Under the pieces are notes generated by a model, which saw only the letters and a program-made list of their open reading frames with translations, searched no databases and was not told where the DNA came from. Positions 12,264-47,292 of a stretch of DNA of 64,000 bases are shown one piece after another. Position 1 is the stretch's first letter. Each line of letters starts with the position of its first letter. The stretch is from Ardenticatenales bacterium (GTDB lineage: Bacteria; Chloroflexota; Anaerolineae; Epilineales; Epilineaceae). The translations under genes and the position numbers were made by a program. The DNA lies in the NCBI GenBank assembly GCA_020853525.1, contig JADYYS010000056.1, positions 1 through 64,000 on the forward strand, read 5' to 3'.

Positions 12264-12272
12264 TGCTATACT
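12264..12272 (+). promoter_or_regulatory. Extended -10 promoter of the cobalamin riboswitch operon
   Basis: TGCTATACT: an extended -10 (TG at 12264-12265, TATACT at 12267-12272). No good -35 is present at the usual distance, which an extended -10 tolerates. Transcription would start near 12279, about 20 bases before the aptamer. Confidence 0.6.
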
Positions 12273-12297
12273 CCCCCCGCAGCCCACACGCTGCCCC

Positions 12298-12452
12298 CTG
12301 CCGGTCCCGCGCAGCCCGGATGCGCGCGGGGGAGCGGGTTCGCCCGCCCAGGGGAAGCCGGTGAGAGTCCGGCGCTGACGCGCAACGGTAACCGCACGGC
12401 CGACGTCGACGACGTCGCCCCGGCCCGCGGAAGCCCGATCGCCTACCGGCAG
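12298..12452 (+). promoter_or_regulatory. Cobalamin riboswitch
   Basis: The closing P1 helix is visible as CTGCCGGT (12298-12305) with ACCGGCAG (12445-12452). Inside lie the B12-box elements GGGGAAGCCGGTGAGAGTCC and GGCGCTGACGCGCAACGGTAA, and at the 3' side GGAAGCCCGATCGCC. These follow the cobalamin-aptamer consensus, with some variation in the last box. A GC hairpin (GCCCC, 6-base loop, GGGGC at about 12473-12488) lies between the aptamer and the start codon and could be part of the switch. No U-run follows it, so the mechanism (termination or masking of the site at 12555-12560) is open. Adenosylcobalamin is the likely ligand. Confidence 0.88.
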
Positions 12453-12564
12453 AGGTTCCGTCCGATGGCAGGCCCCCGCGCTCGGGGCACCGGACGTGAC
12501 CGCGCCCCACGCGCTCGCGCCCCTCCCGACGCCGCCCGCCCCGTCGCGTCAAACGGAGGGACCC

Positions 12565-14802
12565 GTGATCGCATCTCGCCGCCGCCAGCCGATCCTGCGG
12601 CCGATCGCTCTTGCAGCGACCCTGCTGTCGCTCATCGGCATCGGACGGAGCGCCGACGCCGCCTCGTCGCTCGCCCAACCCGCCCCGTCCTTCCTCGGCA
12701 CCGCCGACGTCGTCGTCGACTTCGACGACGGCCGAGTCGCCATCCACCGGATCGCGTCCGACGAGGGGCCGACCGGAGAGGCGCTGCTGCGGAGCGCGGG
12801 CATCGACGCCCAGCTGAAGGACGGCGCCGTCTGCCGAATCGGCGGCGCCGGCTGCCCCCTGTCCAACTGCTTCTGCGGCCCGTACTGGGCGTACTACTGG
12901 CGCGCCGACGACGGCGGGTGGGCCTACGCCTCGACCGGCGCGGCGGCCCGCACGCTCAAGGACGGCGACGTCGACGCCTGGGTCTGGCGCGGCGCCCGAG
13001 CGCCCATCACCGCCACCGCCCAGCAGCGCGCCGTCTGGCTCGGCGCCCGCTGGCTGCGCGACCAGCAACTCCCGAACGGCGACTTCCCGTCACCCGGCCT
13101 GGCCGTCGAGGCGATCCTGGCGGCGCGGGCGGCAGGCGAGGATCCCGGGCAGTGGACGAACGGGGGGCGCAGCGTCGTCGACTACCTCGTGGACAACCTG
13201 TACGACTACAGCCAGCCCAGCGCCGCCCAGGCCGGCAAGGGCCTTGTGGGCATCGCCGCCGCCGGCCTCGAGACGGACGAGATGGGCGGCTTCCATCCCA
13301 GCGCCAACCTGTCGCGCTTCTACGATCCGACGACCGGCCGCTACGGCCTCTCGACGTGGGAGCAGGCCTGGGCGATGCTCGGCGTCGTCGCCGCCAACGG
13401 TCCGCACGGCCAAGCATCGCCGCTCGCCCGCCAGGCGCTCATCGACGGCGCTGCGCCAACCGGCGGCTGGAGCTCCATGCTCGGCGAAGCCGAGGCCGAG
13501 ACGGACGCCACGGGCCTGGCGATCCAAGCCCTCATCGCCGCCGGCGAGCCCGTTACATCGACGGCCATCGTGACGGCCCTCGCGTACCTCGACACCGCCC
13601 AACGCGCCGACGGCGGCTTCGGCCACGACGGCCATCACGAGACGACGAACGCGAACAGCACGGCGTACGCGCTTCAGGCGCTCTACGCCGCCGGCGAGTC
13701 GCCGACCGACCCGCGTTGGACTTCGACCGAAGGCCGCACGGCCGTCGACTACCTGATGAGCCTGCAGCGCGTGAACGGCGCGTTCGACTTCGACGCGGCG
13801 GCCGCCGGCAACGTGCTCGTCGCCTCCGGCCAGGCCGTGCCGGCGCTCAGCGGGCGGTCCTTGGCCGTCCACGGCACGCAGGTCGCCGCCGACCGCGCGC
13901 GCGGGTGGCTCCATCAGGCGCGCGGCGCGGACGGCAGCTTCGCCGGCGGCGCCGCGAATCCCGGTGCCACGATCGAAGCCGTCCTGGCCATGACGGCGCA
14001 CAGCCACTGGACCGATGGCCGCGAGGGGGGCACGCCCGGCCGGCCGTCGGTTGCGGCCTATCTCGGCACCGCCGCCGCCGACTACGCGGCACGCGGCCCG
14101 AGCGCCGCCGGCAAGCTCCTCGCCGGCATCGCCGCTCTCGGTGCCGATCCGCGCGCCTTCGGCAACATCGACGTCGTCGCCGCCCTCACCGCGCGCCTCG
14201 ACCCGGCCACCGGCGCCTTCGGCGACGGCGCACCGTGGAACCAGGCCTGGGCGATCCTCGGCCTTCGGGCCGTCGATGTCGACGTGCCGTCCAAGGCCGT
14301 CGACGCGCTGCGCACCGCCGCCTCGCCCGCCGGCGGCTGGGGCTTCGAGGCCAAGGCTGCCGCGCCGGACGTCGACTCCACCGGCCTGGCGCTGCAGGCG
14401 CTCGGCGCGGTCGGGCTGAACGCCGACGACAAGGCCGTCGCCGACGGCATCGCCTTCCTCCGCGGCACGCAGAACGCCACCGGCGGCTGGCCGGGCTTCG
14501 GTCCGCCCGACGGCGCCAGCATCGACGCTACCGCCGCCGCCGTCCTCGGCCTCGTCGCCGTCGGCCAGCACGTCGACCGCACGGCGTGGTATCGCCCGAG
14601 CGCGGCCCACCCGCTCGGACTCGGCCCGTTCGACGCCCTTGCGGCGGCGCCGTCGCCGTCGGGCGCCTTCCCGGGCTTCGGCGGTCCCGACGACGTCGTG
14701 GCCACCGCCGCTGCGCTGCGCGCCCTCGTCGCGCGCGCCCGGGACGCATCGCCGGCGACGTCCACGATCCACCTGCCGTACGCCGGCTTGGCGGGACGGT
14801 GA
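12565..14802 (+). CDS. Secreted transcobalamin-like protein: DUF4430 plus alpha/alpha-toroid repeats
   Basis: 745 residues. GGAGGG (12555-12560) and a signal peptide right after the GTG (PILRPIALAATLLSLIGIG) fix the start. Residues about 45-125 are a DUF4430 domain (ADVVVDFDDGRVAIHRI, GEALLRSAGID, PYWAYYWRADDGGWAY, LKDGDVDAWVW) with an inserted Cys cluster. The next 600 residues are squalene-cyclase/prenyltransferase-type alpha/alpha repeats (LPNGDF, GGFHPS, TGGW, ADGGFGHDG, GAFDF, DGSFAG, GGWGFE, GGWPGF), long enough for two toroids. Animal transcobalamin and intrinsic factor pair the same two folds to hold B12, in the opposite order. With a cobalamin riboswitch in front and an ECF transporter behind, corrinoid capture is a strong inference, not shown. 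The C-terminus ends STIHLPYAGLAGR. Confidence 0.8.
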   Translation: MIASRRRQPILRPIALAATLLSLIGIGRSADAASSLAQPAPSFLGTADVVVDFDDGRVAIHRIASDEGPTGEALLRSAGIDAQLKDGAVCRIGGAGCPLSNCFCGPYWAYYWRADDGGWAYASTGAAARTLKDGDVDAWVWRGARAPITATAQQRAVWLGARWLRDQQLPNGDFPSPGLAVEAILAARAAGEDPGQWTNGGRSVVDYLVDNLYDYSQPSAAQAGKGLVGIAAAGLETDEMGGFHPSANLSRFYDPTTGRYGLSTWEQAWAMLGVVAANGPHGQASPLARQALIDGAAPTGGWSSMLGEAEAETDATGLAIQALIAAGEPVTSTAIVTALAYLDTAQRADGGFGHDGHHETTNANSTAYALQALYAAGESPTDPRWTSTEGRTAVDYLMSLQRVNGAFDFDAAAAGNVLVASGQAVPALSGRSLAVHGTQVAADRARGWLHQARGADGSFAGGAANPGATIEAVLAMTAHSHWTDGREGGTPGRPSVAAYLGTAAADYAARGPSAAGKLLAGIAALGADPRAFGNIDVVAALTARLDPATGAFGDGAPWNQAWAILGLRAVDVDVPSKAVDALRTAASPAGGWGFEAKAAAPDVDSTGLALQALGAVGLNADDKAVADGIAFLRGTQNATGGWPGFGPPDGASIDATAAAVLGLVAVGQHVDRTAWYRPSAAHPLGLGPFDALAAAPSPSGAFPGFGGPDDVVATAAALRALVARARDASPATSTIHLPYAGLAGR

Positions 14803-15848
14803 CATCCGAGACCTTCGGCGGCCGGGCGGCGGTGGGGCGGCACCCGTTCTGGATCTCGCGTCACCTTCTCCCCCCAGCCCTCTCGCTCGCCGCCGTCCTC
14901 ACTGGCACCACCGCGGCCGTCCCCCGCCCCGCCGCCGCCCAGCCGCCGAACCGCGCCGGCCTCGTCATCCAACTCGGCGACGGCTCCGTCCGCACGTACT
15001 GCATCGCCTTCCCGGAGCCGACCATCACGGGCGACGCGCTCCTGCGCCGTTCCGGCCTCGATGTCCGCGCCGACGTCAGCGTGCTCGGAACGACGGTCTG
15101 CCGGATCGACGAGACCGGCTGCGACCACCCGCGCGAGGCGTGCTGGTGCCACTGCCGAACGCTCGGCGCCGGCTGCACGTACTGGGGCTACAACACGCTG
15201 GAGGGCGATCGGTGGTCCTTCAGCGTCCTCGGCGCCGCCGCCCGCGTCGTCCGCGACGGCGATGTCGACGGCTGGGCGTGGGGCCAGGGCGCGATCGTGG
15301 CCGGCGCAGCGCCGCCGGTGATGACGTTCGAAGATCTGTGCGCGTCGACAGCGTCGACAGCGGCAACCGCGTCGATCCACCCGCCCACCCCCGACCTCAC
15401 CCACAATCCCCCGGTCGGGGCACGGCGCCGCGGTGCCCTCCCCACGCCGACCGGCATCGCACCGAAGACCACGATGTCGACCCACGCGTCACCGGCCGAT
15501 GCCTCGTCGAACGACCCCGTCCCCACCGCCTCGCGACCTCCCGCCGTCCCGCCCGCCGACGTCGCCGCCACCGCACTCCCACCACCGGGCGCCGCACCGC
15601 TCGACGTCGCACCGCTCGACCCCGCGCCCAGCGACCGTATGTCCACCGACCATACGCCCACCGAGGACCACCCCGCCCGCCGCCCGATCCGGGGCGTCGG
15701 ACCCACCGCGCCGGCCGGCACGACGCAGCCGCCTGCCGCGCCCCGGCGGACCGACGGGCGGGCCGCGGACCGCATCGCGCTGGCGGCATACGTCGGCCTC
15801 GTCGTCGCCTTGGCGGCCACTGGATTGTGGCTGCGACGCGCACGCTGA
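14799..15848 (+). CDS. Membrane-anchored DUF4430 protein
   Basis: 349 residues. The GTG overlaps the previous stop (GTGA), so translation is coupled. A signal-like segment (LLPPALSLAAVLTGTTAAVP) precedes one DUF4430 domain (about residues 45-160: VIQLGDGSVRTYCIAF, GDALLRRSGLDV, RVVRDGDVDGWAWG). That domain holds an unusually dense Cys cluster (CRIDETGC, ACWCHC, GAGC). A Pro/Ala-rich linker of about 140 residues follows, then a C-terminal membrane helix (IALAAYVGLVVALAATGLWL) ending in RRAR. The layout suggests a surface relay that takes corrinoid from the soluble binder to the transporter. That role is inferred. Confidence 0.75.
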   Translation: MTSETFGGRAAVGRHPFWISRHLLPPALSLAAVLTGTTAAVPRPAAAQPPNRAGLVIQLGDGSVRTYCIAFPEPTITGDALLRRSGLDVRADVSVLGTTVCRIDETGCDHPREACWCHCRTLGAGCTYWGYNTLEGDRWSFSVLGAAARVVRDGDVDGWAWGQGAIVAGAAPPVMTFEDLCASTASTAATASIHPPTPDLTHNPPVGARRRGALPTPTGIAPKTTMSTHASPADASSNDPVPTASRPPAVPPADVAATALPPPGAAPLDVAPLDPAPSDRMSTDHTPTEDHPARRPIRGVGPTAPAGTTQPPAAPRRTDGRAADRIALAAYVGLVVALAATGLWLRRAR

Positions 15849-15867
15849 GCCGGGCCGGGCTGTCGTC

Positions 15868-18800
15868 GTGCGATCCGAGCGCACCGTGACCCGGCGTCTT
15901 GCTGGGGTGACGATCGCCCTTGCCAGCCTCGTCGGCTGCGGTGTGCTGGCGGCGCCGCTGTGGCCCGGCGGCGGGGCGGTCGCGGCGCGGGCGGCGGGGG
16001 TTCCGGTGCTGTTGGGCGGCATCGTTCTGCTCTGCTTTGCCGCGGCCGCGCTCGAGGCCGGCGTCGGGCTCGGGCCGAAGGCGGTGGCGATGCTCGGGGC
16101 GCTCGTGGCGTTCAACAGCGTGCTGCGGTTCGTGGAGGTCATCGTCCCGGGACCTGGCGAGTTCTCGCCGATCTTCGCGCTCGTGATCCTGGCGGGCTTC
16201 GCGTACGGCGCTCGGTTCGGCTTCCTGACGGGCGCGCTGACGCTCATCGTCTCGGCGCTGATCACCGGCGGCGTCGGGCCGTGGCTGCCGTATCAGATGC
16301 TCGCCGCCGGATGGGTCGGCCTGAGCGCCGGCTGGCTGCCGGGCGCCGGCGGCGACCGCGTGCCGTCGCGGTCCACGGTGTGGGCGCTCGCCGTCTTCGG
16401 CGCGCTGTGGGGGATCGGCTACGGTGTGATCCTGACGCTTTGGGACTGGCAGTTCCGCGAGATCGGTGCCGCCGGCCCTCCCGTCGACGCATGGCGCCGC
16501 TTCGCCGTGTTCTACCTCGCCACGTCGCTCCCGTTCGATGCCTTCCGCGCCGCCGGAAACGCCGCCCTCGTCGCCGTCGCGGGTGGGCCGACGCTGACGC
16601 TGCTCGGGCGGTTGGGGCGACCGTTCGTGGACGTCGATTCCGATCGACCGCATGGCGACCGCGGTGGATCTTCGCGGGACGGGTGCAGGGGCGCACAGTC
16701 GTACGCACCTACCATCGATCCTCGCGCGGTCATCGATCATCGTGCGGGCGGCGGCGCCGCCGGTGCCGGCATGGGGGAGGGCACGGCACGCCGTGCCCCT
16801 ACCGTCGAACATCGTGCCGGCGCGGGACCCGGCGACGCCGTCCATCCAGCCAACCACCACCCCCGCGCCTGGCTCGCCTGGCTCGTCGCCGCCCTGGCGA
16901 TCGGCTCCGTGACGCGCAACCCGCTCGTGCTCGTCCTCGTTTGGCTGGCGCTCGGCGTCGTGCAGGGCGCGGCGATGCGAGGCGCGGCGGCCCGGGGCGG
17001 CGAGGGCAAGGCGTGGCCGGTCGGGCGATGGGCGCCGTGGATCGTCGGGAGCACGGCGGTCTACAACGCGCTGATGGCCCACAGCGGCGACACCGTGCTG
17101 GCGCGCCTGCCCGCATCGTGGCCGCTCGTCGGCGGGGCGATCACGTTCGAGGCCGTTGTCCAGGGTGTCGCGAACGGGTTGGCGCTGATCGTCCTGATGG
17201 CCGCCTTCGCCGCCTTCGAGGCCGCGCTGCCGACGCGGGCGATGCTGATCCTCGTGCCGCGCGCCTTCGGTTCGCTCGCCATCGCCGTCGCCGTCGCCCT
17301 GACGGGTGTGCCGTCCGTGCGACGGCAGCTGGCCGAGGTGCGCGAGGCGCTGGCGCTCCACGGGCAGACGTCCGGCCTGCGTGGCTTCGTCGCCGCGGCC
17401 GGCCCCACGCTGGCGGGCGGGCTCGAGCGGGCGGTGCGCTTGGCCGAGTCCCTCACGGCCCGCGGGCTCGTCGCGGCCACGCCGCCCCCGACCGCGGCCC
17501 GGACGGCCATCGGCGGCGGCCTGGCGTTGCTGGCGCTCGGCGGCACCGGACTGGCGGCGGCACCCGGGGTGTTCTGGGCGGTGATGGCCGTCGCCGGCAC
17601 CGCCGCCGTCGCGATCGGCCTGCATGCGGCCGGGCGGGCGCACCGTCGGACGGCGTGGCGACCGGTGCCGTGGCGCGCCGGCGACACGGTGCTCGTCGCC
17701 TCGGGCGCGGCCGTCCTCGGCCTGGCGATCTGGCCGGCGGCGCGCGCCACGCTGGCCTACTCGCCCTACCCGCGCGTCGGCTGGCCGCCCCTCGACCCGG
17801 CCGTCGTCTTCGGCTGCGCGCTGCTGGCGCTGCCGGCGTGGCGGCTGGTGCGGGAGGTGCGGGAGGTGCAGCTGGTGCGGGAAGCGCGGGAAGCGCAGGG
17901 CATGGCCGATCGAGCGCCGGCCGGGACGGCCGAGGCGGACGGGCATGTTGCGCCGTCATCGCCGGCCGCGATCCTGTGCGACGCGTTCGGCGTTCGATTC
18001 GCGACCGAGGCGGTCCGCGATGTCGTTCCGCCGGCCCTCCCTCCGCTCGACGCCGCGTTCGCCGGCGGGATCACGCTCGTCGCCGGCCCGAGCGGCGCCG
18101 GCAAGTCGACGCTGCTGCGGGCGATGTGCGGCTTGGTGCCGCACTTCACGGGCGGGCGCGTCACCGGCCGCCTGCGTGTCGGCGATCGCGATCCAGTGGC
18201 GCTCGGGCCGGCGGCGATGAGCGGCATGGTCGGCTTCGTCGGCGACGCGCCCGAGTCCGCCTTCGCGCTCGACGAGGTGGCCGACGAGGTCGCGTTCGCC
18301 CTCGAGCACCAGGGCTGGCCGGCCGATCGCATCGCCGCCGCCGTCCGCGCCGCGCTGGACGCCGCCACCGTCGGGCCGCTGGCCGACCGGGCGATCGACA
18401 CGCTCTCGGGCGGCGAGGTGCAGCGGGTGGCGATCGCGACGGCGCTGGCACGATCGCCCAAGGTCCTCGTGCTGGACGAGCCGACGTCCCAGCTGGACGA
18501 CGGGCACGCGGCGGCCGTGCTGGCGGTGGTCCGCGCGCTGGCCGATGCGGGCGTGACGGTCGTGTTGTCCGAGCACCGCCTCGAGCGCGTCGCGCCGCTG
18601 GCCGATCGGATGTTGTGGCTGCCGGGGGGCGGCGCGGCCGGGATCATCGGGCCGCCGGCCGACGTGCTGGCGGGGCTGGCGCTGCCGACGCCGGCGATGC
18701 GGCCGACGCAGGCGGGTCGGCCCGGCGCCGCACGGAGCGGGACGGCGGACGATGCACATCGCGACGATGTCGATGCGGATCCTGCTCCGACACCGGCACT

Positions 18801-19416
18801 GGCCTTCGACGGCGTGGCGCTCGCCTACGGTGATGAGCCGTTGTTCACCGACGTCACGCTGTCCGTCGCGCCGGGCGAGCTCGTCGTGCTCATGGCCCCG
18901 AGCGGCGCCGGCAAGACGACGCTCCTGCGGCTGGCGGCGGGACTCCGTCGTCCGACCGCCGGCCGGATTCGTGTCGCCGGGCGCGACGTCGCAGGTGAGC
19001 CGCCGCACGTTGTGGGACGGCGCCTGGCGTATGTGCCGCAGGCGGCGGGGCAGCTGCTCGTCGGCAGCACCGTCGGCGCGGCGATCGGGCACGCCACGGC
19101 GGCGTGGGCCGGCGGAACGGCGGCGGCTGCGGCCGATGACCTACTGGACCGGCTGGCCGTCGGTCATCTCACCGCGCGTCATCCGCTCGATTTGAGCGCC
19201 GGCGAGCGCCAGCGGATCGCGCTCGCGCTCGCGCTCGCCCCCGGCCGCCCGGCCGCGGCGCTGGACGAGCCGACGCGCGGCCTGGATGCGTGGGCGTTGG
19301 TGCGGCTGGTCGACGTGCTGCAGCAATGCCGTGCGGCGGGCGTCGGGGTGCTCGTCGCGACGCACGATCGGCGGATCGTGGGGGCGGCGGATCGGGTGGT
19401 GGGATTGGGGGAATGA
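15868..19416 (+). CDS. All-in-one ECF transporter: S, T and two ATPase domains in one chain
   Basis: 1182 residues in one uninterrupted frame. Residues about 7-250 form an ECF S component of the CbrT type (GEFSPIFALVILAGFAYGAR, LPYQMLAAGWVGLSAGWLPG, GALWGIGYGVILTLWDW). Residues about 332-620 form the EcfT scaffold (VTRNPLVLVLVWLALG, FEAVVQGVANGLALI, LAESLTARGLV). ATPase 1 has Walker A GPSGAGKST near 740, signature LSGGEVQR near 846 and VLVLDEPTSQLD near 867. ATPase 2 has APSGAGKTT near 1010, LSAGERQR near 1108 and LDEPTRGLD near 1131. ECF subunits are normally separate proteins. With the riboswitch and DUF4430 proteins upstream, the substrate is very likely a corrinoid. The start could also be the GTG at 15886. 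Confidence 0.88.
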   Translation: MRSERTVTRRLAGVTIALASLVGCGVLAAPLWPGGGAVAARAAGVPVLLGGIVLLCFAAAALEAGVGLGPKAVAMLGALVAFNSVLRFVEVIVPGPGEFSPIFALVILAGFAYGARFGFLTGALTLIVSALITGGVGPWLPYQMLAAGWVGLSAGWLPGAGGDRVPSRSTVWALAVFGALWGIGYGVILTLWDWQFREIGAAGPPVDAWRRFAVFYLATSLPFDAFRAAGNAALVAVAGGPTLTLLGRLGRPFVDVDSDRPHGDRGGSSRDGCRGAQSYAPTIDPRAVIDHRAGGGAAGAGMGEGTARRAPTVEHRAGAGPGDAVHPANHHPRAWLAWLVAALAIGSVTRNPLVLVLVWLALGVVQGAAMRGAAARGGEGKAWPVGRWAPWIVGSTAVYNALMAHSGDTVLARLPASWPLVGGAITFEAVVQGVANGLALIVLMAAFAAFEAALPTRAMLILVPRAFGSLAIAVAVALTGVPSVRRQLAEVREALALHGQTSGLRGFVAAAGPTLAGGLERAVRLAESLTARGLVAATPPPTAARTAIGGGLALLALGGTGLAAAPGVFWAVMAVAGTAAVAIGLHAAGRAHRRTAWRPVPWRAGDTVLVASGAAVLGLAIWPAARATLAYSPYPRVGWPPLDPAVVFGCALLALPAWRLVREVREVQLVREAREAQGMADRAPAGTAEADGHVAPSSPAAILCDAFGVRFATEAVRDVVPPALPPLDAAFAGGITLVAGPSGAGKSTLLRAMCGLVPHFTGGRVTGRLRVGDRDPVALGPAAMSGMVGFVGDAPESAFALDEVADEVAFALEHQGWPADRIAAAVRAALDAATVGPLADRAIDTLSGGEVQRVAIATALARSPKVLVLDEPTSQLDDGHAAAVLAVVRALADAGVTVVLSEHRLERVAPLADRMLWLPGGGAAGIIGPPADVLAGLALPTPAMRPTQAGRPGAARSGTADDAHRDDVDADPAPTPALAFDGVALAYGDEPLFTDVTLSVAPGELVVLMAPSGAGKTTLLRLAAGLRRPTAGRIRVAGRDVAGEPPHVVGRRLAYVPQAAGQLLVGSTVGAAIGHATAAWAGGTAAAAADDLLDRLAVGHLTARHPLDLSAGERQRIALALALAPGRPAAALDEPTRGLDAWALVRLVDVLQQCRAAGVGVLVATHDRRIVGAADRVVGLGE
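16779..16802. repeat. GGGCACGGC palindrome inside the ECF fusion gene
   Basis: A near-perfect palindrome of the same family as 6928-7024 lies in frame within the ECF gene, in the non-domain linker (residues about 252-331) between the S and T parts. It is translated as part of GMGEGTARRAPTV. The neighbouring linker DNA also has short repeats (ATCGATC, CATCGTGC). Confidence 0.8.
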
Positions 19417-21598: not shown

Positions 21599-23851
21599 TC
21601 AGCCGCCCAAGGGCACCAGCTTCAGACCGACGGGCAGGAAGATCTTGTGGCCCGTCGTCGGCGCCGTCGCGGGCGGCGTCGTCGGCGTCGGGACGGGCGT
21701 CGTGGGCGAGGGCGTCGTCGGCACGGCCGTCGGGACGCCGGACGGGTCGAATGCGCCGGCGGCGATTCGGCCGATGGTGTCCGGGCTCTGGCTGGGCCGC
21801 CCCGTGGCCGGCCCGTCGATGTCATAGGTCACGAGAACGTCGCCGTTCGGCTCGAACACCATCGCCGTGACGGACGACACGCCCTTCACGACCGGCACGG
21901 TCTGCACCGCCCCGCCCGTCGCGGACAGCTCGGGGACGTAGGAGATTCGTCGCGCGCCGAGTTCGGCGACGTACAGCCGGCCGGCCGGGCTGTAGGCAAG
22001 CGCCGTCGGCCGGTCGAGGCCGGCGACGAGCTCGTTCGTCTCGTTCTCGTCCAGGACGTCACCGTCCTTGTTCACGTCCGTCAGCCGCAGGATGCGGCCC
22101 GTCGGCCCCGCGAATCCGCCGAGGAGCGAGACGTAGGCGGTGAACGGGTCGACGGGCGAGAACGCGAGGCCGGTCGGGATCGCCTCCTGGGCGCCGTCCT
22201 CGTACGGCTCGAGGACCGCCCATGTCGAGAGCGCGCCGGTCGTCGGGTCCATCTTGAGGATGTCGTTCGCGCCGGCGTCGACGATGAACACGGCGTCGCC
22301 GGCCGGGCTCGGAACGAGGCGCCACGGGTTGGAGTCGATGCCGCCCTGCGTCGGGTCGGCACCGTCCGGATTGTTGGCGGTCTCGTAGGCCAGCGTGTCC
22401 GCCAGCACGGTCGGGGTGCCGAGGATCAGCCCGACCTTCAGGATCTTCGCCGCCTCGGCCGGGCGGAGCTGCCCTGGGCCGCCGGACTGGGCGACCAGCA
22501 GGCTGAGCGACGTCGGCGGCGTGCTCGGATCGAGCGGCCACGGGATCGCGTGGTTCGCACCGATGATCCCGGCGCCCGGGTCGATGGCATTCGTCATGTT
22601 GTCCATGATCGTCAACTGCAGCGCCGGGTTGTCGAGCCCGAGCACCTGGACGCGACCGTCACCGCTGCCGGGCGTGAACTCGCCGGGCTTCGGCGCGCCG
22701 GTGCCGCCCTCGCTGACGATGAGCGCGGCCTGCGCCACACCCTGGAACGTGACGCTTTGGTACCACAGTCCGTGCGGGTTCCTCAGGTCGCGGACGACGG
22801 GTGACACGGCGACGGTCGGCGGCGCGGTCGGCGAGGGCGTCGGCGACGCCGTGGCCGTCAATGACGGCGGCGGGGTCGACCCCTCGGCTTCGACGACGAG
22901 CGTGCCCTCCATGCCGTTCGCGCGGTGCATCCCGACGGAGCAGTAGTAGACGTACGAGCCCGGCGCGGCCGGTGCGTCGAAGACGAGATCCTCCGTGCCG
23001 GGGGCCTGGAACCGGCTCGTCTGCAGCTTGCGGCCGCCGTCGAGCTCGAAGACGATGTCGTGGAAGCCCATGTCGTTCTTGAACTCGATCGTCACCGGTT
23101 CGGACGGCCTGACGGTCACGCGATTCGGGTCGTACGCAAAGTTCGTGCCCACGATCGTCACCTTGCGGCGCTCGGGCGGTGCGGCGACGACGAGCGTGCC
23201 GAACATGCCGTTCGCGCGGTGCATGCCAACGGTGCAGTAATAGTCGTACGTGCCCGGCGTGACGGGGGCGTTGAACTTCAAGCTGGCTTCCGAGCCGGCC
23301 TGGATGCGCGCCGTCTTCTCCTGCCGCCCGGCGTCGAGGTCGAAGACGATGTCGTGCGTGCCCTGCACGTTCTTGAACTGGACGTCGAGCGCCTCGCCCG
23401 GCGTGGCGACGATCTCGCTCGGCACGTACTTGTAGTTCGACCCCTCGACCGGAACGACGCGCGCCGCCTGGCCGGGGCTGCCGACGATGAGCGTGCCGGT
23501 CATGCCGAGCTGGCGGTGGTTTCCGACGTCGCAGTAGTAGTCGTACAGACCGGGCTCGACCGGTGCGTTGAACTTGAGCTTATGCGAAACGCCGAGCGTG
23601 GCCGGCTCGGTTCCGACCGTGTTGCCGCCGCCCAAGTCGAAGCGGATGGAGTGGGCGCTCGTGAAGCCGACACCGACGAAGGTGATGTCCAACTCCTCGC
23701 CGGGATCCGCCGTGAGTTCGGTCTTGTCGAACGTGTTGTCGCTGCCGGCGATCGTGATCGCGCGCTGCGGCGCCGCAAGGGCGATCGCGCCGCCGATCAG
23801 GGCCGTGGACAGGGCGAGTGCGACGGCGCCCAATCGGGTCATGCCATGCAT
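21599..23851 (-). CDS. Secreted triple cupredoxin fused to a ScyD/ScyE-like domain
   Basis: 750 residues. A signal peptide (LGAVALALSTALIGGAIAL) is followed by three plastocyanin-type domains at about 30-125, 130-225 and 229-325. Each ends with a complete type 1 copper set: YYCDVGNHRQLGM, YYCTVGMHRANGM and YYCSVGMHRANGM, plus an upstream His (AHS, THD, FHD). After a Pro/Thr linker, residues about 355-700 resemble the ScyD/ScyE beta-propeller family (NPHGLWYQSVTFQG, SNPWRLVPSPAGDAVFIVDAGANDILKMD, RPTALAYSPAGRLYVAELG). The tail is Thr/Pro-rich and ends GHKIFLPVGLKLVPLGG. Likely a cell-surface electron-transfer or redox protein. AAGGA lies 7 bases before the ATG. Confidence 0.85.
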   Translation of the reverse strand: MHGMTRLGAVALALSTALIGGAIALAAPQRAITIAGSDNTFDKTELTADPGEELDITFVGVGFTSAHSIRFDLGGGNTVGTEPATLGVSHKLKFNAPVEPGLYDYYCDVGNHRQLGMTGTLIVGSPGQAARVVPVEGSNYKYVPSEIVATPGEALDVQFKNVQGTHDIVFDLDAGRQEKTARIQAGSEASLKFNAPVTPGTYDYYCTVGMHRANGMFGTLVVAAPPERRKVTIVGTNFAYDPNRVTVRPSEPVTIEFKNDMGFHDIVFELDGGRKLQTSRFQAPGTEDLVFDAPAAPGSYVYYCSVGMHRANGMEGTLVVEAEGSTPPPSLTATASPTPSPTAPPTVAVSPVVRDLRNPHGLWYQSVTFQGVAQAALIVSEGGTGAPKPGEFTPGSGDGRVQVLGLDNPALQLTIMDNMTNAIDPGAGIIGANHAIPWPLDPSTPPTSLSLLVAQSGGPGQLRPAEAAKILKVGLILGTPTVLADTLAYETANNPDGADPTQGGIDSNPWRLVPSPAGDAVFIVDAGANDILKMDPTTGALSTWAVLEPYEDGAQEAIPTGLAFSPVDPFTAYVSLLGGFAGPTGRILRLTDVNKDGDVLDENETNELVAGLDRPTALAYSPAGRLYVAELGARRISYVPELSATGGAVQTVPVVKGVSSVTAMVFEPNGDVLVTYDIDGPATGRPSQSPDTIGRIAAGAFDPSGVPTAVPTTPSPTTPVPTPTTPPATAPTTGHKIFLPVGLKLVPLGG

Positions 23852-31660: not shown

Positions 31661-33646
31661 TCATCGCGCCCGCCGTGCGATCGGCAGCCAGAGGCGCGGC
31701 GCCGTGGCGGTCGGCACCGGCCCGGCGGTCGTCGTGGGCGTCGTCGTTGCGGGCGCCGTCGGCTCGCCCGTCATCGTCGGCGTCGTGGTCGGCGCTGCGG
31801 ACGCGGTCGCGGTCACGGTCACGGTCACGGTCACGGTCACGATGTCCGTCGCAGTCGCAGTCGCAGTGGCCGTCGCCGTCCCCCTCGTCTCGTCCTCGGC
31901 CACCGTGAACCCCACCGCCCGCCCCGGCCCCCACGCCCCGTCGTTCCCGCGCGCTGCGACGACGGCGTAGTACGTGCCGGGCGGGAGGTCGGCGACGTCG
32001 ACGACGAGGCTCGCCGCCTCGTCCCGGCTGTCGAACGCCCCATCGCCGGCAACCAGCGCCGCACCGCCGCCGCTCGGCGACGTGGACGGAGGGAGCGATG
32101 CCGGCAAGCCGGCCCACGGCCCGCCTGCACGGCCGAATACGACCTCGGCACCCGCCGCCCAGCGCGCCGGCGTGCCGGCCACGTCGATGTGGGCGTCGAC
32201 GCGCAGCGCGCGGCCGTCGCCGCCAGGGGCCGGGACGATCGAGGCGGTCAGCGCCGTGACCTCGGGGCCGCGGATGCGCGCGTAGGGCCGGTCCGCGAGG
32301 GCCAGCGTGAGGTCGAGCGCGGCGGCGTGGGGGTCGAGGATCGCGTCGAGGTCGGTGCATCGTGGGAAGAAGTCGTCGCCGCGCAGCTCGATGACATAGG
32401 CCGGGATCCCGAGTTCGCCGTAGGCCCAGTCGCGCGTGTTGCCGCTCACGGCGTAGAGCGCGGACTGCCGAGCGTAGTCCACGCGCGCGGCGTAGCGGTC
32501 GCCGATCGCGTTCAGGCCGTCCGCATTCGGCGGTGGAACCGTCGTCCAGCCCCACGGGGTGAGCACCGTGCCGCGGTTCGTGAAGCTGTGGAAGTTGATC
32601 AGCACGCCCGTCGTCTCGTCGGGCGCGACGTCGGCGTCCGCCGGCGGACGCTGATCGGGCACGACGGCGCGCACCGCCGCCTCGTAGGCGGCAATCTCGG
32701 GCTCGGAGCCGGCGCTCCGGCCGCGATACGTCTCGGCGCAGGCGTCGTTCGAACCGCCGCCGGCCGTCCACTTGAAGACATGGTTGCGGTTCAGGTCGAC
32801 GCCGTCGTGCCGGCCGGTCGTCGGCGGCCAGGCGCACGGCGTCGGCAGGGCGCTCGGGCGGGCGTTCTTGCGCCAGTACCATGGCGTCCCGCCGTAGCGT
32901 GCGCTCGCGCCGAGCTCGACGAGCCGCCGGCCGTCCGGGTTCATCGCGATCCCGACGTAGACCTCGCGGTGATCGAGCAGCCACGTGACGTTCGCGTCGA
33001 CGCCGTAGGCTGCGACGAGGCGCCCGATCGTCCGCCGCATCAGCTCAGTCGTCGCGAGTTCGCGAGCGTGCAGGCCGCCGTCGATCCAGAGGCGGCCCGA
33101 CTTGGGGGCGGTCGAGGCGGCGGCGGTGATCCGCGCAACGAGGACATCGTCGCCCGGCAATCGGTCGCCGCCCGGCGTCGTGCAGCCGCCGGCCGTCCTG
33201 CAGTAGCTGTCGCCGATGTCGAGCACCGTGACGAGGTCGGGTCGCGCCGCCGCGAGGTCGTTGAGCCAGATCACGAGGTCGTCCAGCGCCGTGATGCACG
33301 CCGGCCACGCCGCCACCGCCGCTCGCCCCGCCCCCACGACGCGCACCGGCAGCCCGGCGGCCACGGCCCGCTCGGCGGCGGCGCGGTCGACGGTCAAGCG
33401 CGTGGCGCCGGCGTTGATCGCCTCCTCCCAGGTGGGCAGCAGGCCGGCGAGGGCGGCGGCCTCGGCGCCCGTCGGGTCGTCCAAGTCGATGACGACGGGG
33501 TCCGCTGAGGTGGGGGCGGCGAGGGCGGTCGCGACGGTCAGGGCGATCGCTGCGATGGCCGCGAGGGGTCCGGCGTAAACGCGCGGATGGCGTGAGCGCG
33601 AGCATCGCTTTTCCGACAAGCGCCCGGAGGCTGAGGAATTGCTCAT
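31661..33646 (-). CDS. Secreted M14 zinc carboxypeptidase
   Basis: 661 residues. A signal peptide (AGPLAAIAAIALTVATALA) is followed by the M14 domain: zinc ligands in GGLHARELAT (HxxE) and NFHSF, substrate contacts in AMNPDGRR and DGVDLNRNHVFKW, and the catalytic Glu in YVIELRGDD. Then comes a beta-type module (ALTASIVPAPGGDGRALRVDA) and a Thr/Val/Ala repeat tract encoded by GTCACG-type hexamers (31805-31875). The C-terminus is PRLWLPIARRAR. It should trim C-terminal residues of peptides outside the cell. An ATG at 33718 is an alternative start. Confidence 0.9.
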   Translation of the reverse strand: MSNSSASGRLSEKRCSRSRHPRVYAGPLAAIAAIALTVATALAAPTSADPVVIDLDDPTGAEAAALAGLLPTWEEAINAGATRLTVDRAAAERAVAAGLPVRVVGAGRAAVAAWPACITALDDLVIWLNDLAAARPDLVTVLDIGDSYCRTAGGCTTPGGDRLPGDDVLVARITAAASTAPKSGRLWIDGGLHARELATTELMRRTIGRLVAAYGVDANVTWLLDHREVYVGIAMNPDGRRLVELGASARYGGTPWYWRKNARPSALPTPCAWPPTTGRHDGVDLNRNHVFKWTAGGGSNDACAETYRGRSAGSEPEIAAYEAAVRAVVPDQRPPADADVAPDETTGVLINFHSFTNRGTVLTPWGWTTVPPPNADGLNAIGDRYAARVDYARQSALYAVSGNTRDWAYGELGIPAYVIELRGDDFFPRCTDLDAILDPHAAALDLTLALADRPYARIRGPEVTALTASIVPAPGGDGRALRVDAHIDVAGTPARWAAGAEVVFGRAGGPWAGLPASLPPSTSPSGGGAALVAGDGAFDSRDEAASLVVDVADLPPGTYYAVVAARGNDGAWGPGRAVGFTVAEDETRGTATATATATATDIVTVTVTVTVTATASAAPTTTPTMTGEPTAPATTTPTTTAGPVPTATAPRLWLPIARRAR

Positions 33647-33785
33647 ATCACTTACCGTGCGAGTATCGTCATACACCGTTGCAGCGCCCGCCGGCCGCGA
33701 GCTTCGCGCGTTCCCCACCCCTGCAGCCGGTCCTGCCCCGATTTACGGGTTCCCCACCCCAACTTCGAGAGGCGCCTGTGCACAG

Positions 33786-43248: not shown

Positions 43249-43664
43249 GACAAGGCTCCATTCCGTCGATTTCGGGGCGCCGGGCGCGGCGGGGGATGGT
43301 AGCACCTACCCGTTACCGGAGGGCACTTGGCCCGTTTGCAGAGGGCATTTGGCAGCGGCGCAAACACGCCTATCCTCAGGCCATCTCTCCGATACGAAGG
43401 GGGGATATCCGGGACTGGGGTGATGTTGGGGAGCGAAGCCTCAGTCCCGGACTTGTCACCATCGCGCGGTCGGCCGGGCGCTTGGGGTCGAGGCGCGGGA
43501 TCTGTCGAGGCGCGGGATCTGTCGGGCATGTGAGGGGCGTTTCGCGCGGCGCGCGGGGCGCCCCTCATGCGTGTCCGGCGGCGGCCGCTGGCGCTGCCTG
43601 AGCGCTCGCGATATCCTTGCGCCGGCGCCGTCGCACCCGCCGGATCCGCACCGTGGAGGCCCGC
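43249..43664. other. Repeat-rich intergenic region without a gene
   Basis: No supported gene. It contains a 13-base inverted repeat with one mismatch (43408-43420 with 43439-43451, TCCGGGACTGGGG), an exact tandem 17-mer (43487-43503 and 43504-43520, GTCGAGGCGCGGGATCT), and a 9-bp stem (TGAGGGGCG 43531-43539 with CGCCCCTCA 43559-43567). GAGGGCA[CT]TTGGC is also repeated near 43320-43355. Confidence 0.7.
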
Positions 43665-45731
43665 ATGACCGCCGATCGTCCCGTTCCGACCCTGCGCCAT
43701 CGAGCCGTCATCGGCGCGACCGGCCTTGTCGCCGCTGCGGCAGTGTTGTCAGCGGCGTCCAGGCATGACGTCGCGCTCCGGGCCAGTGCCGTGCTGTCGC
43801 CTGCCGCCCAGGCCTGTCCGATCCGGCCGCTCTCGCCGCCGGTCGCCCCGTTCTTCGAGGACGTTTCGATCGCCAGCGGCATCAAGCCCGCCGCGCTGCC
43901 CGCCGGCACGCGCGCCCACCCGCGCGTGCGCTGGGCGGACATCGACGGCGACGGCTGGGACGACATCGCGGCGCCGACGATGTTCCCGGGCACGCGCGTC
44001 GGCGACGCGAACCCACAGCCGTTCGACTGGCTGATCTGGCGGAACAACCGGGACGGGACGTTCAGCGACATCTCGGTCGAGAGCGGGCTGAAAGGCGTGC
44101 AGGCAGGATTCTTTGCGTTCGGGGACTTCGACAACGACGGCGACCAGGATGTGTTCGCCGGGCTGGACATCCACAACCATTACGACACGTCGGTGCCGCA
44201 CACCCACCAGGTCCTGCTGAACGACGGCCGGGGCCACTTCACGGTCAAGGCGCGCAGCGGCGTCGAGGTGGCGGGCGGCATCGACGAGACGGGCGTCGTC
44301 TACTGGGGCGCCGGCAACGCGGCGCTGGGCGACTACAACGCCGACGGCAACCTGGACATCTTCGTCGGCAACGGCCAGACCAGCTACGCGATGCCCGACC
44401 AGCTCTTCTTCGGCCGGGGCGACGGTACGTTCACGGACGCGACGCCCAACCTCGCCGGCAACCCGCAGCGTCCGTCCAACGGCTCGACGACGTGCGATGT
44501 GGACGACGACGGCGATCTCGACATCTTCGTCAGCACGTACGGCGTCTCGGTCGAGCGCGGTCACAAGATCCTGTGGATCAACGACGGCAAGGGCCGCTTC
44601 ACGAACGAGGCCCGCGCGCGCGGCATCGAGGCGTTCGAGGGCGGGAACACTTGGCGCGCCGACATGGAATACGGAAAGAAGCCGCAGGGCGGGCCGCCGG
44701 AGGAATGGATCGGCTCGAACGGTTTCGGCGTGGACTGCGAGGACGCGGACGGCGACGGCGACATGGACATCCTGATGGCCACGATCGCCCACTCCACCGA
44801 GATCCCGCCCGGCTACCGCGGCTGGCCGCAGTCCGAGATCGATGCCCTGAACTTCACCCGCCGCTGGGCCGATCCGTCGCAGCTCCTCGTGAACCAGGGC
44901 GCCGCGGGCGGCTGGTCGTTCAAGAACGAGTGGCAGACGCGCAAGCTGCCGTACAACGAAGGCGACATCGACGCCGCGTACGCCGACTTCGACAACGACG
45001 GCCGTCTGGACGTCGGTGTATCGCGCGACCGGAAGTACGACGCGAACCCGACGTTCATCGAGCCCGACCAGAAGGGCTGGTTCGGCCTCTATCATCAGCA
45101 GCCGGACGGCACGTTCGCCACCGTCGGCTACACGAGCGGCATCAATGTCCCGACCGACCCCGAGGCCGCCGCCCGGATGCGCGGCTCCGGCAACATCAAC
45201 TGGTCCGATTACGACCGCGACGGCGACCTCGACCTCCTGCTCGGCGGCGGCCCGGGCGCGTCGAGCGGCCACCTGTTCCGGAACACGATCGGCCAATCCA
45301 ACGATTGGCTCCAGGTCCGCGTCGTCGGCGACGGCGTGACCGTGAACCGCGACGCGATCGGCGCGCGCGTCACGCTGCGCTGGGCGGCGGACGGTGCGGC
45401 GACGATCGGCAGCCCGGCGGGCGAGCAGATCACCCGCCAGGTGAAGGCCGGCCGCGGGACGTACAACTCCACGGACACCCGCGTCCTCCACTTCGGCCTC
45501 GGCGCGCGCGACTGCGCCTACACGATGACCGTTACGTTCCCGGACGGCACGGCGCACACGTTCGCCGGCGAGACGGTCGGCCGCAACCGCCACGTCCGGG
45601 TGAGCTACGACGGCGCGCTCGCGGACGACGTCGTGGACGGGCCGGTGCCGGTGGTGCCGACGGCGGTGCCGACGGCCGAACCGACGCCGGGGCGGGCTAC
45701 GGTGTACTTGCCGAAGGCGCTGCGGGAATAG
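43665..45731 (+). CDS. Secreted FG-GAP/VCBS repeat protein with an ASPIC/UnbV-like end
   Basis: 688 residues. A signal peptide (AVIGATGLVAAAAVLSAASR) is followed by at least six FG-GAP-type repeats with calcium-binding DxDxDG cores (ADIDGDGWDDI, DFDNDGDQDVF, DYNADGNLDIF, DVDDDGDLDIF, DCEDADGDGDMDI, DYDRDGDLDLLLGG), which build a beta-propeller. The C-terminal part (NDWLQVRVVGDGVTVNRDAIGARVTLR, REVKAGRG-like, LHFGLG) matches the ASPIC/UnbV module. The tail is Pro/Thr-rich and ends TVYLPKALRE. GGAGG (43655-43659) fixes the start. Likely a surface-exposed binding protein. Confidence 0.88.
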   Translation: MTADRPVPTLRHRAVIGATGLVAAAAVLSAASRHDVALRASAVLSPAAQACPIRPLSPPVAPFFEDVSIASGIKPAALPAGTRAHPRVRWADIDGDGWDDIAAPTMFPGTRVGDANPQPFDWLIWRNNRDGTFSDISVESGLKGVQAGFFAFGDFDNDGDQDVFAGLDIHNHYDTSVPHTHQVLLNDGRGHFTVKARSGVEVAGGIDETGVVYWGAGNAALGDYNADGNLDIFVGNGQTSYAMPDQLFFGRGDGTFTDATPNLAGNPQRPSNGSTTCDVDDDGDLDIFVSTYGVSVERGHKILWINDGKGRFTNEARARGIEAFEGGNTWRADMEYGKKPQGGPPEEWIGSNGFGVDCEDADGDGDMDILMATIAHSTEIPPGYRGWPQSEIDALNFTRRWADPSQLLVNQGAAGGWSFKNEWQTRKLPYNEGDIDAAYADFDNDGRLDVGVSRDRKYDANPTFIEPDQKGWFGLYHQQPDGTFATVGYTSGINVPTDPEAAARMRGSGNINWSDYDRDGDLDLLLGGGPGASSGHLFRNTIGQSNDWLQVRVVGDGVTVNRDAIGARVTLRWAADGAATIGSPAGEQITRQVKAGRGTYNSTDTRVLHFGLGARDCAYTMTVTFPDGTAHTFAGETVGRNRHVRVSYDGALADDVVDGPVPVVPTAVPTAEPTPGRATVYLPKALRE

Positions 45732-46961: not shown

Positions 46962-46973
46962 GGCCGCACAACT

Positions 46974-47128
46974 CAGCCTTCAGGGCAGGGTGAGACGACG
47001 GGCACGGATTCGCGCCCATCGCCGATTCCCGACCGGCGGTAGGGGCCGCAAGGCCCGAGCCCGCGAGCCGCAAGGCAGATCTGGTTCGATGCCAGAGCCG
47101 ACGGTACAGTCCGGATGAAAGAAGGCTG
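46974..47128 (+). promoter_or_regulatory. FMN riboswitch (RFN element)
   Basis: P1 closes as CAGCCTTC (46974-46981) with GAAGGCTG (47121-47128). The RFN core is clear: CAGGGCAGGGTGA, then TTCCCGACCGGCGGTAG, AGCCCGCGAGCCG, GGCAGATCTGGT and GAGCCGACGGTACAGTCCGG. The hairpin between GGGTGA and TTCCCGACC is enlarged by about 35 bases (ACGACGGGCACGG to CGCCGA) compared with the usual short loop. The expression platform lies in 47129-47292 and contains GC-rich stems. FMN should repress ribDEBH. Confidence 0.93.
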
Positions 47129-47292
47129 ACGAGCTCGCGCCACCGCGCGCCGGGCCGGCCTTGGCCGTCCGCGCCGGGCGGTCGTTCCGCACAGGACGAC
47201 GGCCTGCGCGGAAGCCGCGGGTCGGCTCCACGCGTCGGCGCGGCCCGTCGCGCCCCGATGCCCTGCAGGTTGTTGCCTGGAGGGCGATTCCT

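Follow-up and report, generated by a model that had tools for sequence, protein, structure and literature searches.

A cobalamin riboswitch, transcobalamin-like proteins and a single-chain ECF transporter in a probable B12 import operon of a Chloroflexota bacterium

The first 64,000 nucleotides of contig JADYYS010000056.1 from an Ardenticatenales bacterium (Chloroflexota, Anaerolineae), referred to below as the window, contain a candidate operon for uptake of vitamin B12 (cobalamin) between positions 12350 and 19416. The host genome is 4.27 Mb and 96.9% complete, and its relatives with named records belong mostly to Anaerolineae and other Chloroflexota. The locus consists of a cobalamin riboswitch and three genes, P1 to P3, the last of which encodes an energy-coupling factor (ECF) transporter:

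12350-12449, forward strand: cobalamin riboswitch core (GGGGAAGCCGGTG...CGCAACGGTAACC...GGAAGCCCGATCGCC), identified by Rfam RF00174, the model R1 described below and a covarying pair
12565-14802, forward strand: P1, a secreted protein with a signal peptide, an N-terminal transcobalamin-beta-like (DUF4430-like) domain and two alpha/alpha toroids (translation, Pfam, AlphaFold)
14799-15848, forward strand: P2, a secreted transcobalamin-beta-like domain, a long linker and one C-terminal transmembrane (TM) helix (AlphaFold, Foldseek, VIA-align, TM prediction)
14937-15371, forward strand: the modelled stretch of P2, its transcobalamin-beta-like domain (AlphaFold, Foldseek, VIA-align)
15868-19416, forward strand: P3, a complete ECF transporter in a single open reading frame (ORF) (PF12822, two ABC_tran stretches, TM segments)

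P1 starts at a GTG codon with GGAGGG ahead of it, and the GTG start of P2 overlaps the P1 stop by four bases (GTGA). The arrangement read from this DNA in an initial annotation, a cobalamin riboswitch ahead of three coupled genes, is present.

The Rfam Cobalamin model (RF00174) matched 12351-12426 at 22.7 bits (E = 6.8e-4), which is the sole Cobalamin match genome-wide at the E-value threshold and lies below the Rfam gathering cut-off of 31.5 bits. This match ends too soon, and the 3' strand GGAAGCCCGATCGCC is located beyond it. A covariance model, R1, constructed from 16 riboswitches upstream of related operons with the window left out, gave 12350-12449 a score of 55.6 bits, with E = 2.2e-10 over the whole genome; the next-best site reached 20.2 bits, and 12350-12449 is the genome's only clear R1 match. 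The Infernal check suggested in the initial annotation thus recovered the riboswitch, weakly with the Rfam model and strongly with R1. A covarying pair is consistent in all 18 aligned switches, the window included, with zero mismatches, and six of the 18 carry a double change from CUG/CAG to CGG/CCG, both sides together. The conserved core and the covarying pairing are therefore common to the window and to relatives that pass the Rfam cut-off. A flavin mononucleotide (FMN) riboswitch at 46972-47130 (98.8 bits) is the sole riboswitch of the window at Rfam's own threshold; the operon that follows it looks like ribD, ribE and ribBA for riboflavin synthesis and is ordinary.

Cobalamin riboswitches also control cobalt transporters and salvage genes, which counts in favor of two alternatives to the import of intact cobalamin. 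According to the first, the operon is a CbiMNQO-like importer of cobalt (or nickel) under B12 control whose beta domain binds metal, a very unlikely reading for the reasons developed below. According to the second, which is improbable but less remote, the same binders and transporter serve a B12 precursor or incomplete corrinoid (cobinamide).

In P2, a signal peptide precedes the transcobalamin-beta-like domain, and a long linker connects this domain to a single C-terminal TM helix. Sequence models were of little help with the domain: Pfam DUF4430 (PF14478) matched neither P1 nor P2 and, among 55 relatives, recovered a single one at E = 0.041; a search of PDB sequences with a P2-domain profile built from 55 sequences gave no match; and the NCBIfam SCO2322_fam model (NF040672) scored P2 at 30.1 bits, below its cut-off of 85. 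The AlphaFold model of the domain has a predicted local distance difference test (pLDDT) score of 92.1 and contains a beta-hairpin (residues 43-57) after a helix (residues 32-38), a feature typical of the transcobalamin clade (PMC1796856). In Foldseek searches with this model, all 16 best matches were transcobalamin, intrinsic factor, haptocorrin or 3u7z, the crystal structure of a Ruminococcus gnavus DUF4430 protein, each with a probability of 1.00, whereas match 17 had a probability of 0.11. The matches include 5np4, a structure of the human beta domain on its own with cyanocobalamin bound. VIA-align gave Z scores of 10.9-12.3 to transcobalamin, intrinsic factor, haptocorrin and 3u7z, as compared with 5.3 for the best other fold, so that the proposed structural comparison with transcobalamin returned a specific match. 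On the strength of the model, with its beta-grasp fold and hairpin, the P2 domain is placed within the DUF4430/transcobalamin beta domain superfamily. Because the Pfam model detects nothing, the DUF4430-like assignment rests on fold; the earlier description of P2 as a C-terminally anchored DUF4430 protein stands with respect to anchor and fold, but not as a Pfam DUF4430 match. In the PDB, 3u7z is titled 'putative metal binding protein', which would agree with a metal-binding beta domain, but among the closest folds, those whose ligand is known bind cobalamin.

The N-terminal domain of P1 is related to the P2 domain and is followed by two alpha/alpha toroids that are 33% identical to each other. 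P1 matches the Pfam SQHop_cyclase_C/Prenyltrans models above cut-off, and its AlphaFold model (pLDDT 87.3, predicted template modeling score 0.82) contains clear toroids. Fold searches with full-length P1 return the toroids alone and have no bearing on its beta domain. Among solved structures, the toroids come closest in fold to class II terpene cyclases, those of the squalene-hopene type included, and to glycosidases, and for this reason the toroid alone is no pointer to transcobalamin. PF01122, the model of the eukaryotic cobalamin-binding toroid, remained below the Pfam cut-off (E = 0.13 with whole P1, E = 0.04 with toroid 1 alone), and the NCBIfam SCO2321_fam model (NF053823) scored P1 at 81.1 bits against a cut-off of 300. 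The secreted DUF4430 plus toroid protein of the initial annotation is thus borne out by fold, with the amendments that there are two toroids, which are most like those of terpene cyclases, and that Pfam DUF4430 does not match. Likewise, the analogy to animal B12 carriers that had been drawn holds well for the beta-domain half and less well for the toroid half.

The toroid matches could also signify that P1 is a secreted enzyme, of the terpene cyclase or glycosidase type, and that the operon imports its product. We regard this as the least probable of the explanations considered: what is conserved alongside the toroid protein is a B12 riboswitch together with domains of the transcobalamin type, and an alpha/alpha toroid is also the cobalamin-binding half of animal transcobalamin. 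The terpene cyclase version was rejected on its motifs, since of 93 toroid proteins only 4 have DxDD and not one has DxDDT. Relatives of P1 contain one, two or three toroids, with three in tandem in the toroid proteins of loci L056 and L109. A C-terminal motif (hydrophobic, aromatic or His, then LP, within the last residues) was observed in 26 of the 93 toroid proteins, and the same LP-type motif occurs in the secreted-looking window ORFs at 12496-14802, 21599-23851 (reverse strand), 31661-33718 (reverse strand) and 43617-45731; perhaps it is a sorting or anchoring signal. The secreted protein at 21602-23851 (reverse strand) has three cupredoxin domains and then a region with a weak NHL-repeat match.

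P3 contains all the parts of an ECF transporter: an S component (about residues 1-250), a T component (about 330-690) and two ATP-binding cassette (ABC) ATPases (about 700-960 and about 970-1180). The S part matches PF12822 at 40.1 bits, two stretches match Pfam ABC_tran, and the TM segments and first Walker A/signature motifs were identified. The T part is CbiQ-like, as recognized through orthologous T proteins that pass the CbiQ Pfam cut-off. The complete ECF transporter proposed earlier is confirmed in its components, with the correction that they form one S-T-A-A polypeptide. Such a single reading frame was found only in the window genome and in one locus of the same family (L047, 9343-13581); in the other loci the parts are separate. 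Resemblance of the T and ATPase parts to CbiQ and CbiO is again what a cobalt or nickel importer would have; the S part of the window, however, matches PF12822, and no CbiM model in Pfam or NCBIfam matches it.

The genome contains six B12-binding domains, which from their sequences are read as belonging to MetH and enzymes of the methylmalonyl-CoA mutase type, and it encodes a PduO-type cobalamin adenosyltransferase. Neither cobJ, nor CobS, nor a FecCD permease of the BtuC type was found in it. The genome therefore needs B12 and has no other known route among those tested, and this combination of B12 enzymes and adenosyltransferase with missing cobJ, CobS and FecCD/BtuC favors import of finished cobalamin by the operon. 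The cobalt importer was rejected on the same grounds, because without cobJ there is no corrin-ring synthesis and free cobalt would be no help for B12. Cobinamide has a precedent in ECF-CbrT, a transporter that binds cobinamide as well as cobalamin and moves both (PMC5997447). With no CobS and no cobJ, the present genome has no means of completing cobinamide by the established pathway, and its adenosyltransferase is one for finished cobalamin; the argument from the missing CobS against cobinamide is weaker than that against cobalt.

Conservation of the operon was followed through 150 sampled genomes of the class, 62 of which contain SCO2322-family domains. In at least 42 of these 62 operon genomes, the 6 kb upstream of the operon contain an Rfam cobalamin riboswitch in the same orientation, as compared with a roughly estimated chance of well under 1% per genome, and several of the remaining ones also carry a cobalamin riboswitch when rescanned as loci. 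A search of genome contigs used 12 closer rows as query, a 55-row query being too diverse. Of 60 related loci of the class, 54 yielded a single R1 match each, and most of the six loci lacking a match are cut by contig ends close to the operon. The operon and its riboswitch also occur in Actinomycetota (L131-L133, L137-L139) and in a Fimbriimonadaceae genome (L136, Armatimonadota). A conserved gene order of the kind anticipated was found, most commonly toroid protein, one or two beta-domain proteins, T, ATPases and S. No tie of the homologues to genes for another nutrient was seen; their association is with cobalamin riboswitches. In five loci of one family (L055, L065, L074, L086 and L090), a single ORF of 731-821 amino acids encodes the anchored beta domain together with the S component, with no operon-type ATPase pair adjoining it. 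This natural fusion of anchored domain and S component supports a hand-over from P2 to the S component.

The riboswitch, the gene order, the folds, their conservation and the genome's need for B12, all of which were computed, lead us to conclude that this operon very probably serves import under repression by corrinoid, with intact cobalamin as the most likely substrate. We infer cobalamin as the ligand, transport as the activity and P1, P2, P3 as the order of events. The reading put forward in the initial annotation, of binder, membrane relay and importer for corrinoid, is supported. When intracellular cobalamin is low, the riboswitch would permit expression. P1 would be exported and would capture cobalamin with its transcobalamin-type beta domain and alpha/alpha toroids; the second beta domain, that of P2, tethered to the membrane by its C-terminal helix, would load the ligand onto the P3 S part; and P3, as a single-chain S-T-A-A ECF transporter, would drive cobalamin into the cytoplasm, where it could be used by the adenosyltransferase and the B12-dependent enzymes.

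Several observations weigh against this interpretation. The P1 toroids, as modeled, resemble those of terpene cyclases more than that of transcobalamin, and P1 runs from the beta domain to its two toroids, the opposite of animal carriers, in which the toroid is N-terminal and the beta domain C-terminal. The S component is without a significant PDB match, the folate S family is the top NCBIfam match for 7 of 22 members (with no match for the window), and as far as its sequence can tell, the S part gives no sign of being a B12 S component. As it has no close characterized relative, the argument for specificity draws on the leader, the fold and what the genome needs. Finally, cobJ is present in some operon genomes, indicating that the operon is not confined to auxotrophs.

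Textbooks describe ECF transporters as doing without extracytoplasmic binding proteins. We give about even chances to a scheme in which an ECF transporter has dedicated extracellular binders, with a soluble transcobalamin-like catcher passing the ligand to a tethered beta domain that loads the S component directly. If true, this scheme would break the textbook view, in a system that takes only three polypeptides in the window and that, in a related family, has the relay domain fused to S. The operon suggests an ECF transporter fed by extracellular binding domains. The route of B12 entry is largely unassigned in these groups, which is why assigning a function matters: the present results offer a likely one for a family (NCBIfam SCO2321/SCO2322) found in about 40% of the sampled class genomes and in actinobacteria.

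Animal transcobalamin and intrinsic factor bind cobalamin between a toroid and a beta domain. As in these proteins and haptocorrin, a beta domain of the same fold is combined here with an alpha/alpha toroid. Unlike them, P1 has the reversed domain order and two toroids, an extra toroid-less copy (P2) is anchored in the membrane, identity is about 10-13%, and an ECF transporter takes the place of the endocytic receptor as partner. By both the PF01122 model and the domain order, the operon lies outside the animal family. P1 and P2 are distant relatives of the SCO2321 and SCO2322 families, well below the cut-offs of both models, which themselves carry no function; in Kitasatospora (L137), toroid and beta-domain genes are likewise located downstream of a cobalamin riboswitch. 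The group II transporter ECF-CbrT of Lactobacillus delbrueckii, whose S component CbrT itself binds cobalamin with nanomolar affinity (PMC5997447), is an ECF transporter for cobalamin, as P3 is predicted to be, but P3 is a dedicated S-T-A-A chain, and no sequence relation between the S parts was found. BtuFCD similarly combines an extracytoplasmic binder with an ATP-driven cobalamin importer, as may be the case here, but every part has a different fold and the genome is without FecCD-type permeases.

The closest precedent is the transcobalamin-like SLBB clade defined by Burroughs et al. (2007; PMC1796856), who described toroid fusions in either order and operons with CbiO and CbiQ, proposed B12 scavenging, and named low-GC Gram-positives, planctomycetes and some euryarchaea as hosts of the clade. 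The idea of bacterial transcobalamin-like B12 scavenging was thus already published in 2007. In literature outside subscription journals, no description of the present branch was found, and the 2007 paper alone was related. The proteins share with theirs a secreted beta-grasp domain, the hairpin after the helix and toroids fused or adjacent, and the operons share paralogous SLBB proteins in one operon, ECF-type genes and predicted B12 scavenging. The operon is therefore a divergent branch of the kind that they described, which differs in its hosts (Chloroflexota, Actinomycetota, Armatimonadota) and in being missed by Pfam DUF4430; the riboswitch, the S-component fusion and the single-chain transporter found here are unreported in that work. 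To the 2007 proposal the present analysis adds fold and regulatory evidence consistent with bacterial relatives of the animal B12 carriers doing the same job, and what is likely to be new is a riboswitch-controlled divergent branch, a probable function for two NCBIfam families, and the fusions.

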